Below are positions 1 through 6,030 of a DNA stretch of 6,030 bases, piece after piece. The DNA comes from a bacterium (GTDB lineage Bacteria; Blakebacterota; Blakebacteria; Blakebacterales; Blakebacteraceae), in the NCBI GenBank assembly GCA_025774205.1, contig JALGWK010000122.1, positions 1 through 6,030 on the forward strand, written 5' to 3'. The notes below the pieces were generated by a model. It was not told where the DNA came from. It saw only the letters and a list, made by a program, of their open reading frames with translations, and did not search any database. The number at the start of each line of letters is the position of its first letter. The first letter of the stretch is position 1. Both the position numbers and the translations under genes were made by a program.

Positions 1-623
1 CTCCGGCCGCTTGTAGGCCGCCATGCTGTACCCGAGAGCTCCGAGCGCGCCCTGCTGGACCGCGGAGCGGTAGAGCCGACCAACACTGGTGGCGCCGAAG
101 ACGATCTTTCCCGCTACATCGAGGCCCTCAAAGTCCTCCGCCCGTCCGGCACCGACGAAGACGAGTTCCGCCCTTACTCCTTCGGGAGGTGTCGAATGCG
201 AGTTGCTGGCAATCATGTTGAAATTGGAATGGAACTCGAGCAGCGGCTCATCCTCCCCGACGATCGTGAGGGAACCATCGATTGGATCCCACGCCGGGCG
301 GCTCAAAGGCCGATGTTCGATCCGGTAGGTGAAGGGATGTCCGGCGGCGGACTCCTCCGGCCGGTAACCCGCCTCGAGGAGTTCCTCCTCCACGCGGGCG
401 ATCGAGGCATCGAAGCCGCTGTTGCCGGGCAGTCGCCAGAGATTGTCCATGAAGGCGACTCGCGCGCCATCGTGTACCACGACTCGAAGACCGGATTGGC
501 CGGCCTCCGCTGCGGTCGCTGCTGCTGGGCCTCCACCGCCGGAGCGAGTGATGACACCGACATCATCACGACCGCCAGCATGATCACGGTACGGCTCAGT
601 TCCGGGTGACGTTCTGTCCTCAT
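1..623 (-). CDS. Exported M28-type (PA-domain) peptidase, N-terminal part, with apparent frameshift; runs off the left edge
   Basis: The gene starts at the ATG at 623-621, with GAGG six bases upstream (630-633). The first 32 residues form a clear Sec signal peptide: basic start, hydrophobic core VIMLAVVMM, and cleavage near AVEA before QQQ. That frame then becomes Arg/Pro/Ser-rich and stops at 305-303. The frame with codons beginning at 480, 477 and so on to 3 stays open to the window edge and reads as a good protein. It has LWRLPGNSGFDASIARVEEELLEAGY, typical of the N-terminus of M28 aminopeptidases, then SNSHSTPPEGVRAELVFVGAG and LDVAGKIVFG, typical of the protease-associated insert. That frame has no ATG upstream and only a GTG at 480 without a ribosome binding site. 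Joining the two parts needs a one-base (-1) shift somewhere near 481-545, from sequence error, mutation or recoding. The catalytic core lies outside the window. It follows the M28 gene at 681-2111 by 57 bp on the same strand. Confidence 0.8.
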
Positions 624-680
624 CCTCTGCCTCGTTTCTTCTGCCGGGTCACAGTCTTGTCCTTAAACGTGGAGCGGCGG

Positions 681-2111
681 TTACCGGTTGCCGGAGATCC
701 GCGGCAGTGGAGTCTCCAGGTCAGCCAGGATATACGCCATCACCGCCATGGCGGCAGTCTGATCGGCCAGCAGGTCCCGGTCGACGTTTTCCACCACATC
801 TTCCTCTGAATGGTGGTAATCGAAGTAGTGCTCGGTGCTGGCCCACAATCCGAGCAGGGGCACCCCGTGCGCTCCGAGTGGACCGATGTCGGGCCCGCCG
901 CCGCCGATCCGGAGTTCGTCAGCTCCGACCGGGCCGAGGAACTGAAGGATGTCCCGCAGAACTGCATACCCCGCTTCGGTCGTCCCGGCGGCGCTGAAGC
1001 CGATCATCGGTCCGGCTCCTCCATCCGATTCGATCGCGGCCACGTGCTCGGCGGCCTCACCGGCGTGCTGTGACGCGTACCCGTTCCCCCCCCGCAGTCC
1101 GCCGACTTCCTCGGCTGCGAAAAGCACCACCCGGATAGTGCGGCGGGGCCTCAGTCCGAGAAGCTTGAGTATCCTGATCGTCTCCATCGCCGCCACGCAC
1201 CCCACACCGTCGTCGTGGGCGCCCGTCCCGAGATCCCATGAGTCGAAGTGTCCGCCGATGACGACAACCTCTCCGGGGAGTTCACTCCCCCTCAGTTCAC
1301 CGATGATATTGGCATCCCCGGCATCGGGGAGGGTTCTGACATCCAGTTCGAGGCGGAGACGCACCTGTTCACCCGACCTGAAGAGCCGATCGATCGATCC
1401 GGCGTCGGCCATGGTGAGGGCAGCGGCCGGGATCGGATCGACACCATCCTGGTAGGCCGTCATACCGGTATGCAGGTTCCCGGCCGGGCCGGTCCCGACC
1501 GACCTGACGAGACATGCCACGGCACCCTTCCGGGCAGCCACTACCGGCCCCTGGGAGCGATACGCCACCGCCTCCGCGTAGCCCGACATGTCCCGACTGG
1601 TGCGCCTCATGGGAAAATTGAAGAGCACTATCTTCCCTTCCACATCAGCTACGTCGAACGATCCGAACTCCTCGAAATCGGCGGCCACGATCACGTCGGC
1701 TTCGATGCCTTCGGCCGGTGTTCCGATACTGTTCCCCAGGGCGGTTATCTGCAGCGGTCGCCACCAGGGCAGGGTCAGCCAGGCGGCCTCGCTCCCCCGT
1801 ACCCAGTGGGAGACCATCACCTCTTCCTCGCTGACCCGGTCGGCACCGTCGGCCCGCATGGTCTCGACCGCCCACTCACGCGCCAGTCTGCCCGCGGGTG
1901 ACCCGGGCAGGCGCGGACCGATCCCGTCGCACAGCTCCACAAGTTTCTCGAACTGAAGCCCTTGAGACCTCACTGCCTCGATGATCCTCGCGACGTCCGC
2001 TCTGTACTCCTCATTGATCGCGCTCCGGGCGTCAACGCACGATGACGCGGTCAGGGGCAGAGCCAGCAGCGGGAGCATGAACAGTGCTCGGCTGAGTACG
2101 CCCTTCTTCAT
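681..2111 (-). CDS. Exported M28 family metallopeptidase (aminopeptidase / carboxypeptidase Q-like)
   Basis: This is a complete di-zinc exopeptidase of 476 residues, expected to trim peptides outside the cytoplasm. I start it at the ATG at 2111, which has GGAGG (2122-2126) upstream. An in-frame GTG at 2120 is too close to that site. Residues 1-24 form a signal peptide (MKKGVLSRALFMLPLLALPL) ending TASSC. Cys25 could be lipidated, but Ala at -3 makes the lipobox weak. Residues 55-85 (LCDGIGPRLPGSPAGR) are the usual M28 N-terminal motif. About 115-255 is a protease-associated-like insert (VEGKIVLFNFP, ARKGAVACLVRS). The catalytic core follows, with ligands assigned by analogy to Aeromonas aminopeptidase: His288 (GGHFDSWDLG), bridging Asp300 (HDDGVG), catalytic Glu334 and ligand Glu335 (AAEEVG), Asp363 (ESDGG) and His434 (DYHHSEED). 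All are present, so it should be active. It lies 45 bp after the EamA gene and 57 bp before a second M28 gene. The exact substrate cannot be told. Confidence 0.95.
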   Translation of the reverse strand: MKKGVLSRALFMLPLLALPLTASSCVDARSAINEEYRADVARIIEAVRSQGLQFEKLVELCDGIGPRLPGSPAGRLAREWAVETMRADGADRVSEEEVMVSHWVRGSEAAWLTLPWWRPLQITALGNSIGTPAEGIEADVIVAADFEEFGSFDVADVEGKIVLFNFPMRRTSRDMSGYAEAVAYRSQGPVVAARKGAVACLVRSVGTGPAGNLHTGMTAYQDGVDPIPAAALTMADAGSIDRLFRSGEQVRLRLELDVRTLPDAGDANIIGELRGSELPGEVVVIGGHFDSWDLGTGAHDDGVGCVAAMETIRILKLLGLRPRRTIRVVLFAAEEVGGLRGGNGYASQHAGEAAEHVAAIESDGGAGPMIGFSAAGTTEAGYAVLRDILQFLGPVGADELRIGGGGPDIGPLGAHGVPLLGLWASTEHYFDYHHSEEDVVENVDRDLLADQTAAMAVMAYILADLETPLPRISGNR

Positions 2112-2121
2112 CAGATCCACA

Positions 2122-2126
2122 CCTCC
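2122..2126 (-). promoter_or_regulatory. Ribosome binding site deciding the start of the M28 gene
   Basis: GGAGG on the minus strand lies 10 bases before the ATG at 2111 and only 1 base before the GTG at 2120-2118. This favours the ATG, which also puts the basic MKKG at the front of the signal peptide. Confidence 0.6.
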
Positions 2127-2156
2127 ATCGAAACACGCGTCGGATCGCCCGGCAGA

Positions 2157-3140
2157 TCAGACGATCGGTACACCAGTACGATCAGCGGGAGCCCGGGCCA
2201 GGAAGAAGGTGCTCCCGATAATGAGCAGCCCTCCTGCTATAGTGAGCATACCCGGTATCTCACCGAAGAAGATTACACCCCACAGGGCGGCGAAGACGAT
2301 CTGAAGATAGCCGAAGGCGGCGACGCGACCGGCCGGTTCGAGCCGCATCCCGCGGGTCAGGTTCAGTTGCCCGAAATAGGTCGCGATCCCGATCCCGAGC
2401 AGGAGCGGCCATTCCCAGAGATAGGGCACAACGAGGTCGGTCAGAACAACCGGGGAGGAACCGACAACGCTGACCAGCGCGAAGTAGAAGACGATGACGA
2501 GGGGATCCTCGGTCCGGGCGAGCCGTCGGATCAGGACCCAGGCGGCGGCGCTGAGGAAGGCGCTCACCACTCCCGCTCCCACCGCCAGGGGATCGAGACC
2601 GGCGCTCATCTCTCCAAAGAGCGCGGTCGGCTGGGCGACCAGGACCACTCCAACCAGGCTGAGGAGAACCATGCCCATGTGGCGGATGCCGAGTACTTCG
2701 GAGATGAAAATGGCGGCGATCACGGTGGTGAAGGCGGGATTGAGGAACTGGAGGACGGTGACGTCGGCCAGAGGCAGTCTGAGAATGGCGAAGTAGAAGC
2801 AGTTGAGGGCGATGAAACCGACCACGCCCCGGATGACGAGGACCCGCCGGTTCGTGCCCCAGGGATCTATCCCGCGCCTGCGGAGGGTGACGGCGCAGAG
2901 GATGACGAGGATGACCGACCGGGCGAAGACCAGTTCGAAGGAGTGGATGTGCTGCCCCACGGTCTTCACCATGAGGCTCATGACGCTGAAGAAGAACGAC
3001 GCGACAACCATGTGTCGCAGACCCTGAGGGAACCGTCTCGATCGGGACGATGGCATGAGATGCAACAAACCTCCCTGAATGAGAACCGTCACTCCCTTTT
3101 TCACCCCGTGCCGCCCGTTGTCATACCAGATCCTGCCCAT
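2157..3140 (-). CDS. EamA/DMT-superfamily transporter (10 TM)
   Basis: This is an inner-membrane permease of the drug/metabolite transporter superfamily, whose members mostly export amino acids or other metabolites. The protein is 327 residues with ten hydrophobic segments, at roughly 42-58, 68-86, 101-119, 125-145, 153-169, 185-206, 214-234, 243-260, 272-292 and 296-314. It shows the internal duplication of the family: FLNPAFTTVIAAIFISEVLG closes the first EamA repeat, and FGYLQIVFAALWGVIFFGE with GGLLIIGSTFFLAR closes the second. The ATG at 3140 is chosen because GGGAGG sits five bases upstream. This gives a basic 28-residue leader that is unusual for the family. A start at the ATG at 3056 would give 299 residues, closer to the usual length, but its nearest GGGAGG is 13 bases away. 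As first gene of the left block it is probably co-transcribed with the two peptidases, so peptide or amino-acid export is a reasonable but unproven guess. Confidence 0.93.
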   Translation of the reverse strand: MGRIWYDNGRHGVKKGVTVLIQGGLLHLMPSSRSRRFPQGLRHMVVASFFFSVMSLMVKTVGQHIHSFELVFARSVILVILCAVTLRRRGIDPWGTNRRVLVIRGVVGFIALNCFYFAILRLPLADVTVLQFLNPAFTTVIAAIFISEVLGIRHMGMVLLSLVGVVLVAQPTALFGEMSAGLDPLAVGAGVVSAFLSAAAWVLIRRLARTEDPLVIVFYFALVSVVGSSPVVLTDLVVPYLWEWPLLLGIGIATYFGQLNLTRGMRLEPAGRVAAFGYLQIVFAALWGVIFFGEIPGMLTIAGGLLIIGSTFFLARAPADRTGVPIV

Positions 3141-3145
3141 TCGCA

Positions 3146-3151
3146 CCTCCC
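3146..3151 (-). promoter_or_regulatory. Ribosome binding site for the EamA transporter
   Basis: GGGAGG on the minus strand sits five bases before the ATG at 3140-3138. It overlaps an in-frame GTG at 3146-3144, which is therefore an unlikely start. Confidence 0.6.
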
Positions 3152-3157
3152 GCCTGG

Positions 3158-3186
3158 TTGAATCCGGTCGGGGGTCCGGTTACATT
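3158..3186 (+). promoter_or_regulatory. Candidate sigma70-type promoter for the LanC-like operon
   Basis: TTGAAT (3158-3163) and TACATT (3181-3186) are separated by exactly 17 bases, and each matches the sigma70 consensus hexamers at 4 of 6 positions. Transcription would start near 3193, leaving a leader of about 48 bases before the ATG at 3241. It lies in the divergent intergenic region, which contains no gene. The match is moderate and the host's sigma factor preferences are unknown. Confidence 0.4.
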
Positions 3187-3209
3187 CTTCGTTCATGCCG
3201 TGACCGAAG
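3187..3209. promoter_or_regulatory. Imperfect inverted repeat, candidate operator
   Basis: The arms CTTCGTTCA (3187-3195) and TGACCGAAG (3201-3209) are complementary at 8 of 9 positions around a 5-base centre (TGCCG). The repeat begins directly after the candidate -10 hexamer and covers the expected start of transcription, where a repressor would bind. It could also form a short hairpin in the 5' leader. No regulator gene is in the window. Nothing else is recognised in the intergenic stretch 3141-3240. Confidence 0.4.
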
Positions 3210-3240
3210 TGGGGTGCGGCGAGGAAAGGGAGTTGGGCTC

Positions 3241-4632
3241 ATGCGGAAACCACCGGCGCTCGAAATCGTGATCCCCCTGGCGGCGGCAGCCTCCATCCTC
3301 TTCATCCTGCCGCAGAAGAGCGCCTACCTGGACACGGCCCTGGCCGGCCTCAACTGGATCGAGAGCCATGCCGTCGAAGTGACGGGCGGCGGTTCCGTTT
3401 ATCCGAACGTCCCCGACGAACCCGATTCCCCGACCACCGACATCTCCCTCTACCATGGACAGCCGGGTCGGGTCCACGCTTTCCTGCAGGCGGCGATGGC
3501 CAGTGAGGATCCGAAATGGGAGGCCGCGGCGCGGCGGTCCCTCGACGGACTGGAGGAGGGTCTCGCGCAGTTCGCAGAGACCGGCTACAGGGACGCGGGA
3601 CTCTACACGGGCCTGGCCGGAGTCGCAGCCGCCTGTTTCCAGGCATCCCGGGTCCTGCCCGACGGAGAACATTACCTCGACCGGGGACTCGCCCTGGCCG
3701 ACACCATCGCGAGCTGGAGCCGCCCGGTCGATGGCGGCACGACCTGGACCGGAGTGACCGATATGATCTCGGGAGCCGCCGGCTCCGGACTCCTGCTCTT
3801 TGAGGCATTCGAGATGGGCGGCCATCGTGCTCATCTCGACCGGGCCCTCGCGGCGGCGAGGTGGCTGCTGGATGTTGCCAGCGAAGATCAGGAGGGGAAC
3901 CTCCACTGGGAGATCGCTGACACTGGCGGTCTCCACTACCCGAATTTCTCCCACGGCACCGCCGGAGTGGCTTTCTTCCTCGGGCGCGCGTCCTGGTACG
4001 CAGCCGCTTTCGGTATGGATGAGGATGCCGTCCGGTTCGCGGCTGCCCGGAAGGCAGGGATCTCGTGGCTGGAATCTCACGGTGAAGCGGATGGCTGCGT
4101 GGTCTTCCATCACGAGGGTGACGGTGAGGACCTGCAATACTACGGCTGGTGTCACGGTCCGGCCGGAACAGGACGCCTCTGGATGCAGGAGAGCATCCTG
4201 GCACCAACCGTTGTGGACGTACCGGGGAATCTGCTCGGACCGGCTGAGGCGGGGGCGCGTTTCCTGATCGACTCAGGCCTGGAGCCCGGTGAGAGCCCCT
4301 CGGGATACTGGGACAATCTCGGGATCTGCTGCGGCACGGCCGGGATCCTCAACTACCTGCTCGACCTCTACCTCCTTACCGGTGAACGGGAGTGGCTGAA
4401 GAGCGCGAAGGAGTGCGGGGACATACTGATGAGCCGGGCCGTCCCGGCCGGGGAAGAGATGGTGAACTGGCCGGTGGCGGAGCATCGCGTCCGCCCCGAT
4501 TTCGTCCAGACGCAGACCGGTTACATGCAGGGAGCCGCCGGCATATCGGCCAGCCTCATCCGTCTCTGGCTGGTCGTGAAAGGACGATCGGACGAGATCG
4601 TGCGATTCCCGGACGAACCTGCGATCAGATGA
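3241..4632 (+). CDS. LanC-like (lanthionine synthetase C-like) protein with N-terminal membrane segment
   Basis: This 463-residue protein has the LanC alpha/alpha-toroid fold. Seven repeated Gly-rich turns are visible: YHGQPG (71-76), YTGLAG (122-127), ISGAAG (176-181), SHGTAG (237-242), WCHGPAG (303-309), CCGTAG (363-368) and MQGAAG (429-434). In LanC enzymes the zinc that activates thiols is held by Cys, Cys and His. Here Cys304, Cys363 and Cys364 occupy those positions, so His is replaced by Cys, as in the CCG group of LanM synthetases. His238 matches the catalytic His of NisC (His212). WCHG resembles eukaryotic LANCL proteins more than WCYG of bacterial LanC. Residues about 7-23 form one hydrophobic segment after MRKPP, suggesting a signal anchor and an extracytoplasmic domain. 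The start at 3241 has GGGAG (3228-3232) upstream; the in-frame extension back to 3079 overlaps the divergent gene and is not used. No dehydratase, kinase domain or precursor peptide is nearby, so the reaction is unknown. Confidence 0.9.
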   Translation: MRKPPALEIVIPLAAAASILFILPQKSAYLDTALAGLNWIESHAVEVTGGGSVYPNVPDEPDSPTTDISLYHGQPGRVHAFLQAAMASEDPKWEAAARRSLDGLEEGLAQFAETGYRDAGLYTGLAGVAAACFQASRVLPDGEHYLDRGLALADTIASWSRPVDGGTTWTGVTDMISGAAGSGLLLFEAFEMGGHRAHLDRALAAARWLLDVASEDQEGNLHWEIADTGGLHYPNFSHGTAGVAFFLGRASWYAAAFGMDEDAVRFAAARKAGISWLESHGEADGCVVFHHEGDGEDLQYYGWCHGPAGTGRLWMQESILAPTVVDVPGNLLGPAEAGARFLIDSGLEPGESPSGYWDNLGICCGTAGILNYLLDLYLLTGEREWLKSAKECGDILMSRAVPAGEEMVNWPVAEHRVRPDFVQTQTGYMQGAAGISASLIRLWLVVKGRSDEIVRFPDEPAIR

Positions 4633-4636
4633 GGAG
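4631..4636 (+). promoter_or_regulatory. Ribosome binding site overlapping the upstream stop codon
   Basis: GAGGAG overlaps the TGA (4630-4632) of the LanC-like gene and lies six bases before the ATG at 4643. This indicates translational coupling of the LanC-like gene and the hydrolase. Confidence 0.6.
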
Positions 4637-4642
4637 TATCCG

Positions 4643-5413
4643 ATGAAGGTGACTGTCTGCGAACTCCCCGATTCATCGGCCGCTCTCGAGGAGGCCTGGA
4701 ACGGTCTCACATTGCATCTGGCAGATGAGGGGAGCGACCTCCTCCTGCTGCCCGAGATGCCCTTCCACCCCTGGTTGGCCGGCACCCGGGAAGTCGATCC
4801 GGGAGCCTGGCTCGCAGCGGTGGAGGCACATGACCGCTGGCTGGAGCGGCTGCCCGAAATGGGCGTTGCCACGGTGCTCGGCAGCCGGCCGGTGATCCGG
4901 GATGAACGGCGTTTCAATGAGGGGTTCGTCTGGGAGGTCACAGGCGGCTACCGGGCGGCGCACCTGAAATACTACCTGCCCGATGAAGAGGGATTCTGGG
5001 AGGCGAGCTGGTACGAACGGGGAGATGGTGAGTTCAACGTCATCGAGGCCGGAGGGGTGAAGGCCGGATTCCAGATCTGCACCGACCTCTGGTTCACGGA
5101 GCGATCCCGGGCCCTCGGCCGGCAGGGAGCCCACCTGATAGCGGCACCGCGGGCAACCCCCCGTTCAACGCTCGAAAAGTGGCTGGCCGGCGGCCGGGTG
5201 GCGGCGGTAACCTCCGGAGCCTACTGCCTCAGTTCCAACCGCTTCACCTCAGCGGAGAACGAGCAGGACCCGGGGGGACTCGGCTGGATCACCGACCCGG
5301 AGGGTGAGGTGCTCGCCACGACCGAACCCGATCGGCCATTCGTCACCGTCACGATCGACCCGGCTTTCGCGGAAGGGGCGAAGGAAACCTATCCGCGGTA
5401 TGTACGGGAGTAG
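4643..5413 (+). CDS. Carbon-nitrogen hydrolase (nitrilase superfamily amidase)
   Basis: This 256-residue cytoplasmic-type enzyme hydrolyses a non-peptide C-N bond (amide, carbamoyl or nitrile). The family's Glu-Lys-Cys triad is complete: Glu38 in LLLLPEMPFHPW, Lys109 in AHLKYYLPDEEGFWE and Cys146 in FQICTDLWFTE, which fits the family pattern CxDxxFPE. The second active-site Glu is probably Glu115 or Glu116. The length is normal for a single CN-hydrolase domain, and no signal peptide or extra domain (for example NAD synthetase) is present. The subfamily cannot be fixed by eye, so substrates such as omega-amides, ureides or deaminated glutathione remain open. The gene is tightly coupled to the LanC-like gene (10 bp gap, overlapping ribosome binding site) and is followed 72 bp later by the NhaC-family gene, so the three probably form one operon. 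Confidence 0.93.
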   Translation: MKVTVCELPDSSAALEEAWNGLTLHLADEGSDLLLLPEMPFHPWLAGTREVDPGAWLAAVEAHDRWLERLPEMGVATVLGSRPVIRDERRFNEGFVWEVTGGYRAAHLKYYLPDEEGFWEASWYERGDGEFNVIEAGGVKAGFQICTDLWFTERSRALGRQGAHLIAAPRATPRSTLEKWLAGGRVAAVTSGAYCLSSNRFTSAENEQDPGGLGWITDPEGEVLATTEPDRPFVTVTIDPAFAEGAKETYPRYVRE

Positions 5414-5473
5414 GATGGACCCGTCGGCCGGGTGAGCCGGAAACGGGGCCACCGAGCAGACCTGAACGAACCG

Positions 5474-5479
5474 AGGAGG
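5474..5479 (+). promoter_or_regulatory. Strong ribosome binding site fixing the GTG start of the NhaC-family gene
   Basis: AGGAGG lies six bases before the GTG at 5486. The nearby ATG at 5493 is out of frame with the NhaC-like reading, so GTG is the start. The 72 bp from 5414 to 5485 holds no other convincing gene or terminator. Confidence 0.7.
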
Positions 5480-5485
5480 AACGAC

Positions 5486-6030
5486 GTGCAGGATGAGACA
5501 AAACGCGCCCCAGGCCTTGGACTGTCACTGATACCTGTCGTCGTCCTGATCGGGACCCTCTTCTATACCATTGTGATCCTGGAGGGGACCGGCCACATCC
5601 CCCTCATCATCGGCGCGATCACGGCCTCGCTCATCGCCGGCTATTCCCTCGGCTATACGTGGGAGGAGATCCTCAAGGGCTTCACCACCGGTATCACCTC
5701 CGCCCTGCCCGCCCTCCTGATCCTCATCATCGTCGGGCTCCTGATCGGGATCTGGATCGCCAGCGGAGTGGTGCCGGTCATGATCTTCTACGGCCTCAAG
5801 ATTCTGGCGCCCGGCTATTTCCTGGTGGCGACCTGCCTGATCTGCGCCCTGATCTCGCTCGCGACCGGTTCGTCGTGGTCGACCGCCGCCACGGTCGGAC
5901 TGGCCATGATGGGGGTCGGTCAGGCTCTCGGGATCCCGGCCGGCATGACGGCCGGCGCGGTCATCTCGGGCGCCTACTTCGGCGACAAGATGTCGCCCCT
6001 TTCAGATACCACCAACCTCGCCCCGGCGAT
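5486..6030 (+). CDS. nhaC: NhaC-family Na+/H+ antiporter, N-terminal part; runs off the right edge
   Basis: The first 181 residues of an inner-membrane antiporter are present, reading from a GTG start to the window end. Family members exchange Na+ for H+, or organic acids as in MleN malate/lactate exchange. Hydrophobic segments lie at about 12-33, 38-53, 72-93, 95-107, 111-127 and 133-150. The signature of the family is clear: LATGSSWSTAATVGLAMMGVG (about 125-145), then SGAYFGDKMSPLSDTTNLAP (161-180), a highly conserved NhaC block with the charged Asp167, Lys168 and Asp174 in the membrane. The full protein is usually 450-500 residues, so well over half is missing. It is third in the right block, and its position after the LanC-like and CN-hydrolase genes hints at uptake or exchange of a related metabolite. 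Whether it moves only cations cannot be told. Confidence 0.9.
   Translation, partial: MQDETKRAPGLGLSLIPVVVLIGTLFYTIVILEGTGHIPLIIGAITASLIAGYSLGYTWEEILKGFTTGITSALPALLILIIVGLLIGIWIASGVVPVMIFYGLKILAPGYFLVATCLICALISLATGSSWSTAATVGLAMMGVGQALGIPAGMTAGAVISGAYFGDKMSPLSDTTNLAPA

Follow-up and report, generated by a model that had tools for sequence, protein, structure and literature searches.

Lanthipeptide cyclases act in the cytoplasm, mammalian LANCL2 is associated with the membrane from the inside and, to our knowledge, LanC chemistry has been described only from the cytoplasm. LanC-like proteins, the LanC fold and a ligand set of three cysteines are already known; the latter distinguishes the ProcM clade and is a known functional variant (PMC13060382). 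In LanCL1, His219 is the general acid and His277 the enolate-stabilising residue, and in bacterial stand-alone LanCs the place of His277 is mostly taken by Tyr (PMC9934072). No report of an exported, periplasmic or dockerin-bearing LanC was found in the literature searched, of which few subscription papers were part. As far as this literature shows, a LanC protein that is exported and anchored while keeping its site intact, as predicted here, is new.

The stretch of DNA that was analysed (the window) comprises bases 1-6030 of a 6,896-base contig from a genome which is 85.9% complete and 4.8% contaminated. It carries the following genes:

681..2120, minus strand: M28 peptidase, predicted lipoprotein (LTASSC; PF04389, E 5.3e-25; same order in genome G001)
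2157..3146, minus strand: EamA-family transporter, divergent from the LanC gene (PF00892, E 1.2e-28; neighbour also in G001 and G003)
3241..4632, plus strand: stand-alone LanC-like gene, 463 aa (PF05147, fold match, orthologue)
4643..5413, plus strand: carbon-nitrogen hydrolase of the nitrilase/amidase superfamily (PF00795, E 6.9e-20)
5486..6030, plus strand: start of an NhaC-family antiporter gene which continues past the window (PF03553, E 8.5e-11; TIGR00931, E 5.2e-57)

Gene, family and fold

The stand-alone LanC-like protein that an earlier note had recognised at 3241-4632 was borne out by the ORF call and by a PF05147 match (E 1.6e-25, residues 66-442). With 89.9 bits compared to a curated cut-off of 23.2 bits the protein is a member of this family, and its gene is the only one with a PF05147 domain found in its genome. 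A longer ORF beginning with ATG at 3079 was disfavoured. The start at 3241 is supported since similarity to the orthologue begins exactly there, at MRKP, and the in-frame upstream sequence differs. This orthologue (G001; JALGVQ010000208.1, a MAG of the same genus) is 74% identical, and a whole-gene pN/pS of 0.30 in the codon comparison indicates purifying selection. It alone was recovered when named genomes were scanned with query patterns taken from the N-terminus only; the viral contigs scanned yielded no relatives.

The phylum was sampled with four genomes (G000-G003) that are 63-86% complete. In G003, which represents a sister genus (L004/L056), the EamA and NhaC genes flank a mere remnant of the LanC gene corresponding to residues ~387-460 (the last ~75 codons), and the hydrolase gene is missing between them. 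Decay or deletion of the LanC-like gene is probable in this genome, and the gene can thus be lost.

All seven GxxG-type motifs of the LanC domain, which had been described as complete from the sequence, were found:

Residues 70-76: motif 1, LYHGQPG
Residues 121-127: motif 2, LYTGLAG
Residues 176-181: motif 3, ISGAAG
Residues 237-242: motif 4, SHGTAG
Residues 304-309: motif 5, CHGPAG
Residues 363-368: motif 6, CCGTAG
Residues 429-434: motif 7, MQGAAG

An AlphaFold2 model computed from a two-sequence alignment adopts the (alpha/alpha) barrel fold of LanC at a mean pLDDT of 60.7 (pTM 0.70). Its best 14 structural matches were all LanC domains (Z 21.9-28.2). In the comparison with NisC and LANCL1 that the earlier note had proposed, LanC and LANCL structures ranked top (Z 22-28), clearly above the sugar enzymes which share the fold (Z up to 20).

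Putative zinc site and catalytic residues

The register of the active site was established from the repeat motifs and from a profile alignment to LanCL2 (domain 3):

3760..3762, plus strand: Asp174, invariant in a 7-sequence alignment
3952..3954, plus strand: His238, equivalent of the LanCL1 general acid His219 (NFSHGTAG; invariant in the 7-sequence alignment, aligned to LanCL2 AHG)
4150..4155, plus strand: Cys304, putative zinc ligand 1, and His305, equivalent of LanCL1 His277 (WCHGPAG; LanCL2 profile register)
4327..4332, plus strand: Cys363 and Cys364, putative zinc ligands 2 and 3, CCG type (ICCGTAG; Cys-Cys also in the orthologue and in G615)

Cys304 and Cys363 match the two Cys ligands of LanCL2. 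The third place of the Cys-Cys-His ligand set of LANCL proteins, a His, is taken by Cys364, giving CCG instead of CHG. The predicted triad Cys304, Cys363 and Cys364 is also present in the orthologue and agrees with the ligand set that defines LANC_like proteins, one Cys together with either Cys-His or Cys-Cys. The residue four positions before Cys304 is Tyr, whereas NisC has Arg at this place.

N-terminal segment and predicted location

The N-terminus consists of two parts:

3241..3264, plus strand: basic n-region MRKPPALE, residues 1-8 (translation)
3265..3312, plus strand: hydrophobic segment IVIPLAAAASILFILP, residues 9-24, probable uncleaved signal anchor (hydropathy, shuffles, orthologue)

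A hydrophobic segment had previously been placed at about residues 7-23 behind a basic start; the segment was retained, and its boundaries were corrected to residues 9-24. The Kyte-Doolittle mean over 15 residues peaks at 2.75 in the segment and is at most 1.79 elsewhere in the protein, and such an N-terminal peak arose in 15 of 20,000 composition shuffles. With 16 residues, two of them prolines, the segment is short, and the charges around it are modestly biased: the n-region has a net charge of +2 counting the amino terminus, compared to 0 for the first 15 residues behind the segment and -2 for the first 25. This predicted bias favours a domain outside. The segment is an addition to the LanC fold, as the model has low confidence for residues 1-26, and for most LanC structures the alignment to it starts only at residue 15-28. 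Its conservation was assessed on two sequences, the orthologue (counterpart MRKPTALEIVIPVLAAASILWILPSK) being the sole close relative; pN/pS of the first 30 codons, with few sites, was 0.33 and indicated no relaxation.

Sequence inspection revealed no clear cleavage site near the end of the segment. Cleavage by signal peptidase at ALA 33-35 would satisfy the -3/-1 rule, but this site, 12 residues past the segment, falls within the first LanC helix; hence an uncleaved anchor is preferred. With its first Cys at residue 132 the protein was rejected as a lipoprotein.

By sequence inspection and hydropathy, an N-terminal export signal preceding a zinc-competent LanC domain was found in the window protein, its orthologue and two distant relatives (G615 and G060), and among ~35 LanC-like ORFs plus 8 further sequences these were the only ones with an export-type start. 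The ~30 other LanC-like ORFs from whole genomes lacked such a start, and eight stand-alone LanC-like proteins from plasmid and phage records lacked a hydrophobic N-terminal segment. The relative in G615, which looks like a Flavobacteriaceae genome by gene content, is 30% identical over 416 residues (E 1e-57 in a single comparison), shares the closing motif AEHRV(R/K)P(D/E)F...QTG.MQG.AGI with the window protein and begins with MLKIKSYHFYSILLTILFVSC, a lipoprotein-type signal as judged by inspection. The G060 relative (L007 952-3357; 801 residues), likewise about 30% identical, combines a signal peptide with a He_PIG Ig-like domain and a type I dockerin; the literature searched contained no report of this architecture. 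A tree of LanC-like proteins had a weak backbone and gave no support for one origin of the exported proteins, nor did AU tests reject a grouping of three or four of them (p values of 0.25 and 0.26). The record MT835884.1 ('Bacteriophage sp.', faecal), which may be a bacterial contig, contains a LanC-like gene of the cytosolic type.

The possibility that close homologues lack the segment proved false for the 74% identical orthologue and true for cytosolic stand-alone relatives at 21-30% identity. Export thus marks a subset and not the whole CCG-type group. Judged by sequence, the window protein is best placed within the stand-alone CCG-type set or close to it, as an exported form.

Taken as a whole, the observation of a LanC-type protein with an export- or anchor-like start was confirmed. 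The predicted membrane anchoring outside the cytoplasm, as earlier proposed, is well supported: the orthologue retains the segment, which is not part of the fold, and two distant relatives carry export signals of other kinds. A location outside the cytoplasm is considered likely, and the comparison with the G615 and G060 relatives is the strongest sequence evidence pointing to it.

Gene neighbourhood and search for lanthipeptide genes

The gene order M28-EamA-LanC is kept in G001. The hydrolase gene begins 10 bp after the LanC gene and is probably co-transcribed with it; an export signal was not seen in the hydrolase. The start of the NhaC gene was chosen at GTG 5486, which is preceded by GAGGAGG; just past the window end this gene crosses a short run of N (L054 to 6896). 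Positions 1-623 of the window encode, on the minus strand, a second M28-like/PA-domain-like protein which is apparently frameshifted, with its signal peptide (MRTERHPELSRTVIMLAVVMM...) and its body (VVVHDGARVAFMDNLW...) in different reverse frames; the 160-residue body fragment had no Pfam match. Nothing in the window operon points directly to thiol chemistry.

The earlier statement that the window holds neither a LanB/LanM dehydratase nor a precursor held, and neither was found beside the LanC gene in the contigs. In particular, the 6.9-kb window contig harbours no dehydratase/precursor pair just outside the window and no precursor-like small ORF between genes, and PF04738 (LanB dehydratase) had no match in G000-G003, all incomplete genomes. 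In these incomplete genomes and the 6.9-kb contig, the LanB and precursor neighbours that mark a class I lanthipeptide cyclase were thus not seen.

Other genomes provided further observations. In G615, a LanB-type dehydratase gene and a downstream 282-aa ORF (L109 7509-10585) lie beside a peptidase-type exporter; no LanC is found within 18 kb of this locus, and the single LanC domain detected in the genome belongs to the lipoprotein, which is encoded on another contig. Also in L109, a small ORF (12433-12606) encodes a GG-type leader and no Cys. A secreted M14 peptidase is encoded ~2 kb from the G615 LanC gene; an exported peptidase near the LanC gene in both settings is, with two cases, weak evidence. 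In the G359 phylum (L008, L011 and relatives), stand-alone LanC-like genes of the CCG type, of which some genomes carry two, adjoin genes assigned by eye to a MalY/PatB-like aminotransferase and a cysteine synthase-like protein. This neighbourhood hints at a link with sulfur amino acids.

Proposed function and alternative explanations

Most likely, the protein is a LANCL-type zinc-thiolate enzyme which is exported and acts on extracytoplasmic peptides. The N-terminal signal anchor would take the LanC-like barrel through the inner membrane, to which the protein would remain bound, its catalytic domain facing outwards. A zinc ion on Cys304, Cys363 and Cys364 would bind and activate a thiol, for addition to or removal from an extracytoplasmic peptide at a dehydroamino acid or another unsaturated group of this kind; His238 and His305 may aid proton transfer and enolate stabilisation in this reaction. 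The enzyme would act alongside the peptidase lipoprotein, the amidase and the small-molecule transporters, and these neighbours suggest a role in peptide salvage or detoxification rather than in lantibiotic synthesis. The retained site is compatible with extracytoplasmic zinc-thiol chemistry. For this explanation in its entirety (anchor, outer-side domain and zinc-thiol chemistry on peptides) we see the chances as about even. The shortness of the segment, the modest charge bias, its conservation in two sequences, the Tyr before Cys304 and the operon content weigh against it.

Its chief rival, unlikely in our estimate, accepts export but assigns another reaction to the barrel, on polysaccharides as in GH88, GH127 and GH76 or in amide hydrolysis, with the Cys site structural or changed. 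Many sugar enzymes share the fold, the exported relatives match GH127 and GH88 weakly and one of them has a dockerin; moreover, LanC-like proteins near carbohydrate genes in Bacteroidales were judged likely to be closer to endoglucanases (PMC10352776). Those Bacteroidales proteins, however, are without the zinc motif which the window protein and its exported relatives keep together with the catalytic His, no carbohydrate enzymes adjoin the window gene, and LanC structures match the model clearly better than sugar enzymes.

It is distinctly improbable that the segment tethers the protein with its LanC domain facing the cytoplasm. LANCL2 offers an analogy, other LanC and LANCL proteins are cytosolic, and both the missing clear cleavage site near the segment end and the small charge difference would fit; yet basic residues precede the segment, the 25 residues behind it are net negative, and the G615 and G060 relatives carry lipoprotein and signal-peptide starts. 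Very improbable is a regular lanthipeptide cyclase, with its dehydratase and precursor encoded in the missing part of the genome. The incompleteness of the genomes would allow this, and G615, bearing an exported relative, has a LanB gene elsewhere. Against it stand the missing LanB match in G000-G003, the lack of a precursor-like ORF between the genes, the conserved EamA/LanC/NhaC setting and the cytoplasmic action of lanthipeptide cyclases; furthermore, as the genome has a single LanC domain, no class II-IV synthetase was found.

To return to the exported zinc-thiolate enzyme, the window protein and at least two distantly related exported versions indicate that zinc-thiol chemistry of the LanC kind probably also occurs outside the cytoplasm. 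If LanC proteins are indeed exported with their zinc site intact and, in the lineage of the window, occur without LanB, the range of thioether chemistry would widen to the periplasm or cell surface. Such proteins would also offer a simple system in which to test the role of stand-alone bacterial LanC-like proteins, cytosolic ones included. A bolder reading, which we consider less likely than not, is that several Gram-negative lineages, perhaps independently, have put a zinc-competent LanC outside the cytoplasm for thiol addition to, or removal from, dehydroamino-acid peptides. If true, lanthionine-type chemistry would serve extracellular peptide handling and not antibiotic making.

Comparison with described LanC proteins

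The window protein has the LanC fold in common with the class I cyclases NisC and MadC (Z 23.5-23.7), but these act with LanB on a precursor peptide and, unlike the window protein, have a CHG motif and a Tyr after the first Cys. With the cyclase domains of ProcM-clade LanM proteins it shares the Cys-Cys-Cys ligand set (PMC13060382); LanM, however, is cytosolic and fused to a dehydratase domain, which the window protein lacks. The best structural match was the LanC domain of the curvocidin synthetase CuvL (Z 28.2), which also has a CCG motif but sits in a kinase-lyase-cyclase fusion, whereas the window protein stands alone.

CCG-type 'LanC family proteins' of Streptomyces, Georgenia, Nonomuraea and Mesobacillus are 27-39% identical over the matched part. 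The window protein resembles these stand-alone proteins of Actinomycetota and Bacillota in length and CCG motif, and the annotated ones have no adjacent LanB, but none of eight has the N-terminal hydrophobic segment. The CCG motif is also found in stand-alone LanC proteins of the G359 group. Eukaryotic LANCL1 and LANCL2, which add glutathione to dehydroamino acids, share the fold of a LanC protein that stands alone (Z 22-24), the His residues at the LanCL1 His219 and His277 positions and two Cys ligands. When the structures are aligned, however, identity is 14%. They are cytosolic or on the inner face of the membrane with His as the third ligand, whereas the window protein is predicted to be exported and has Cys in this place.
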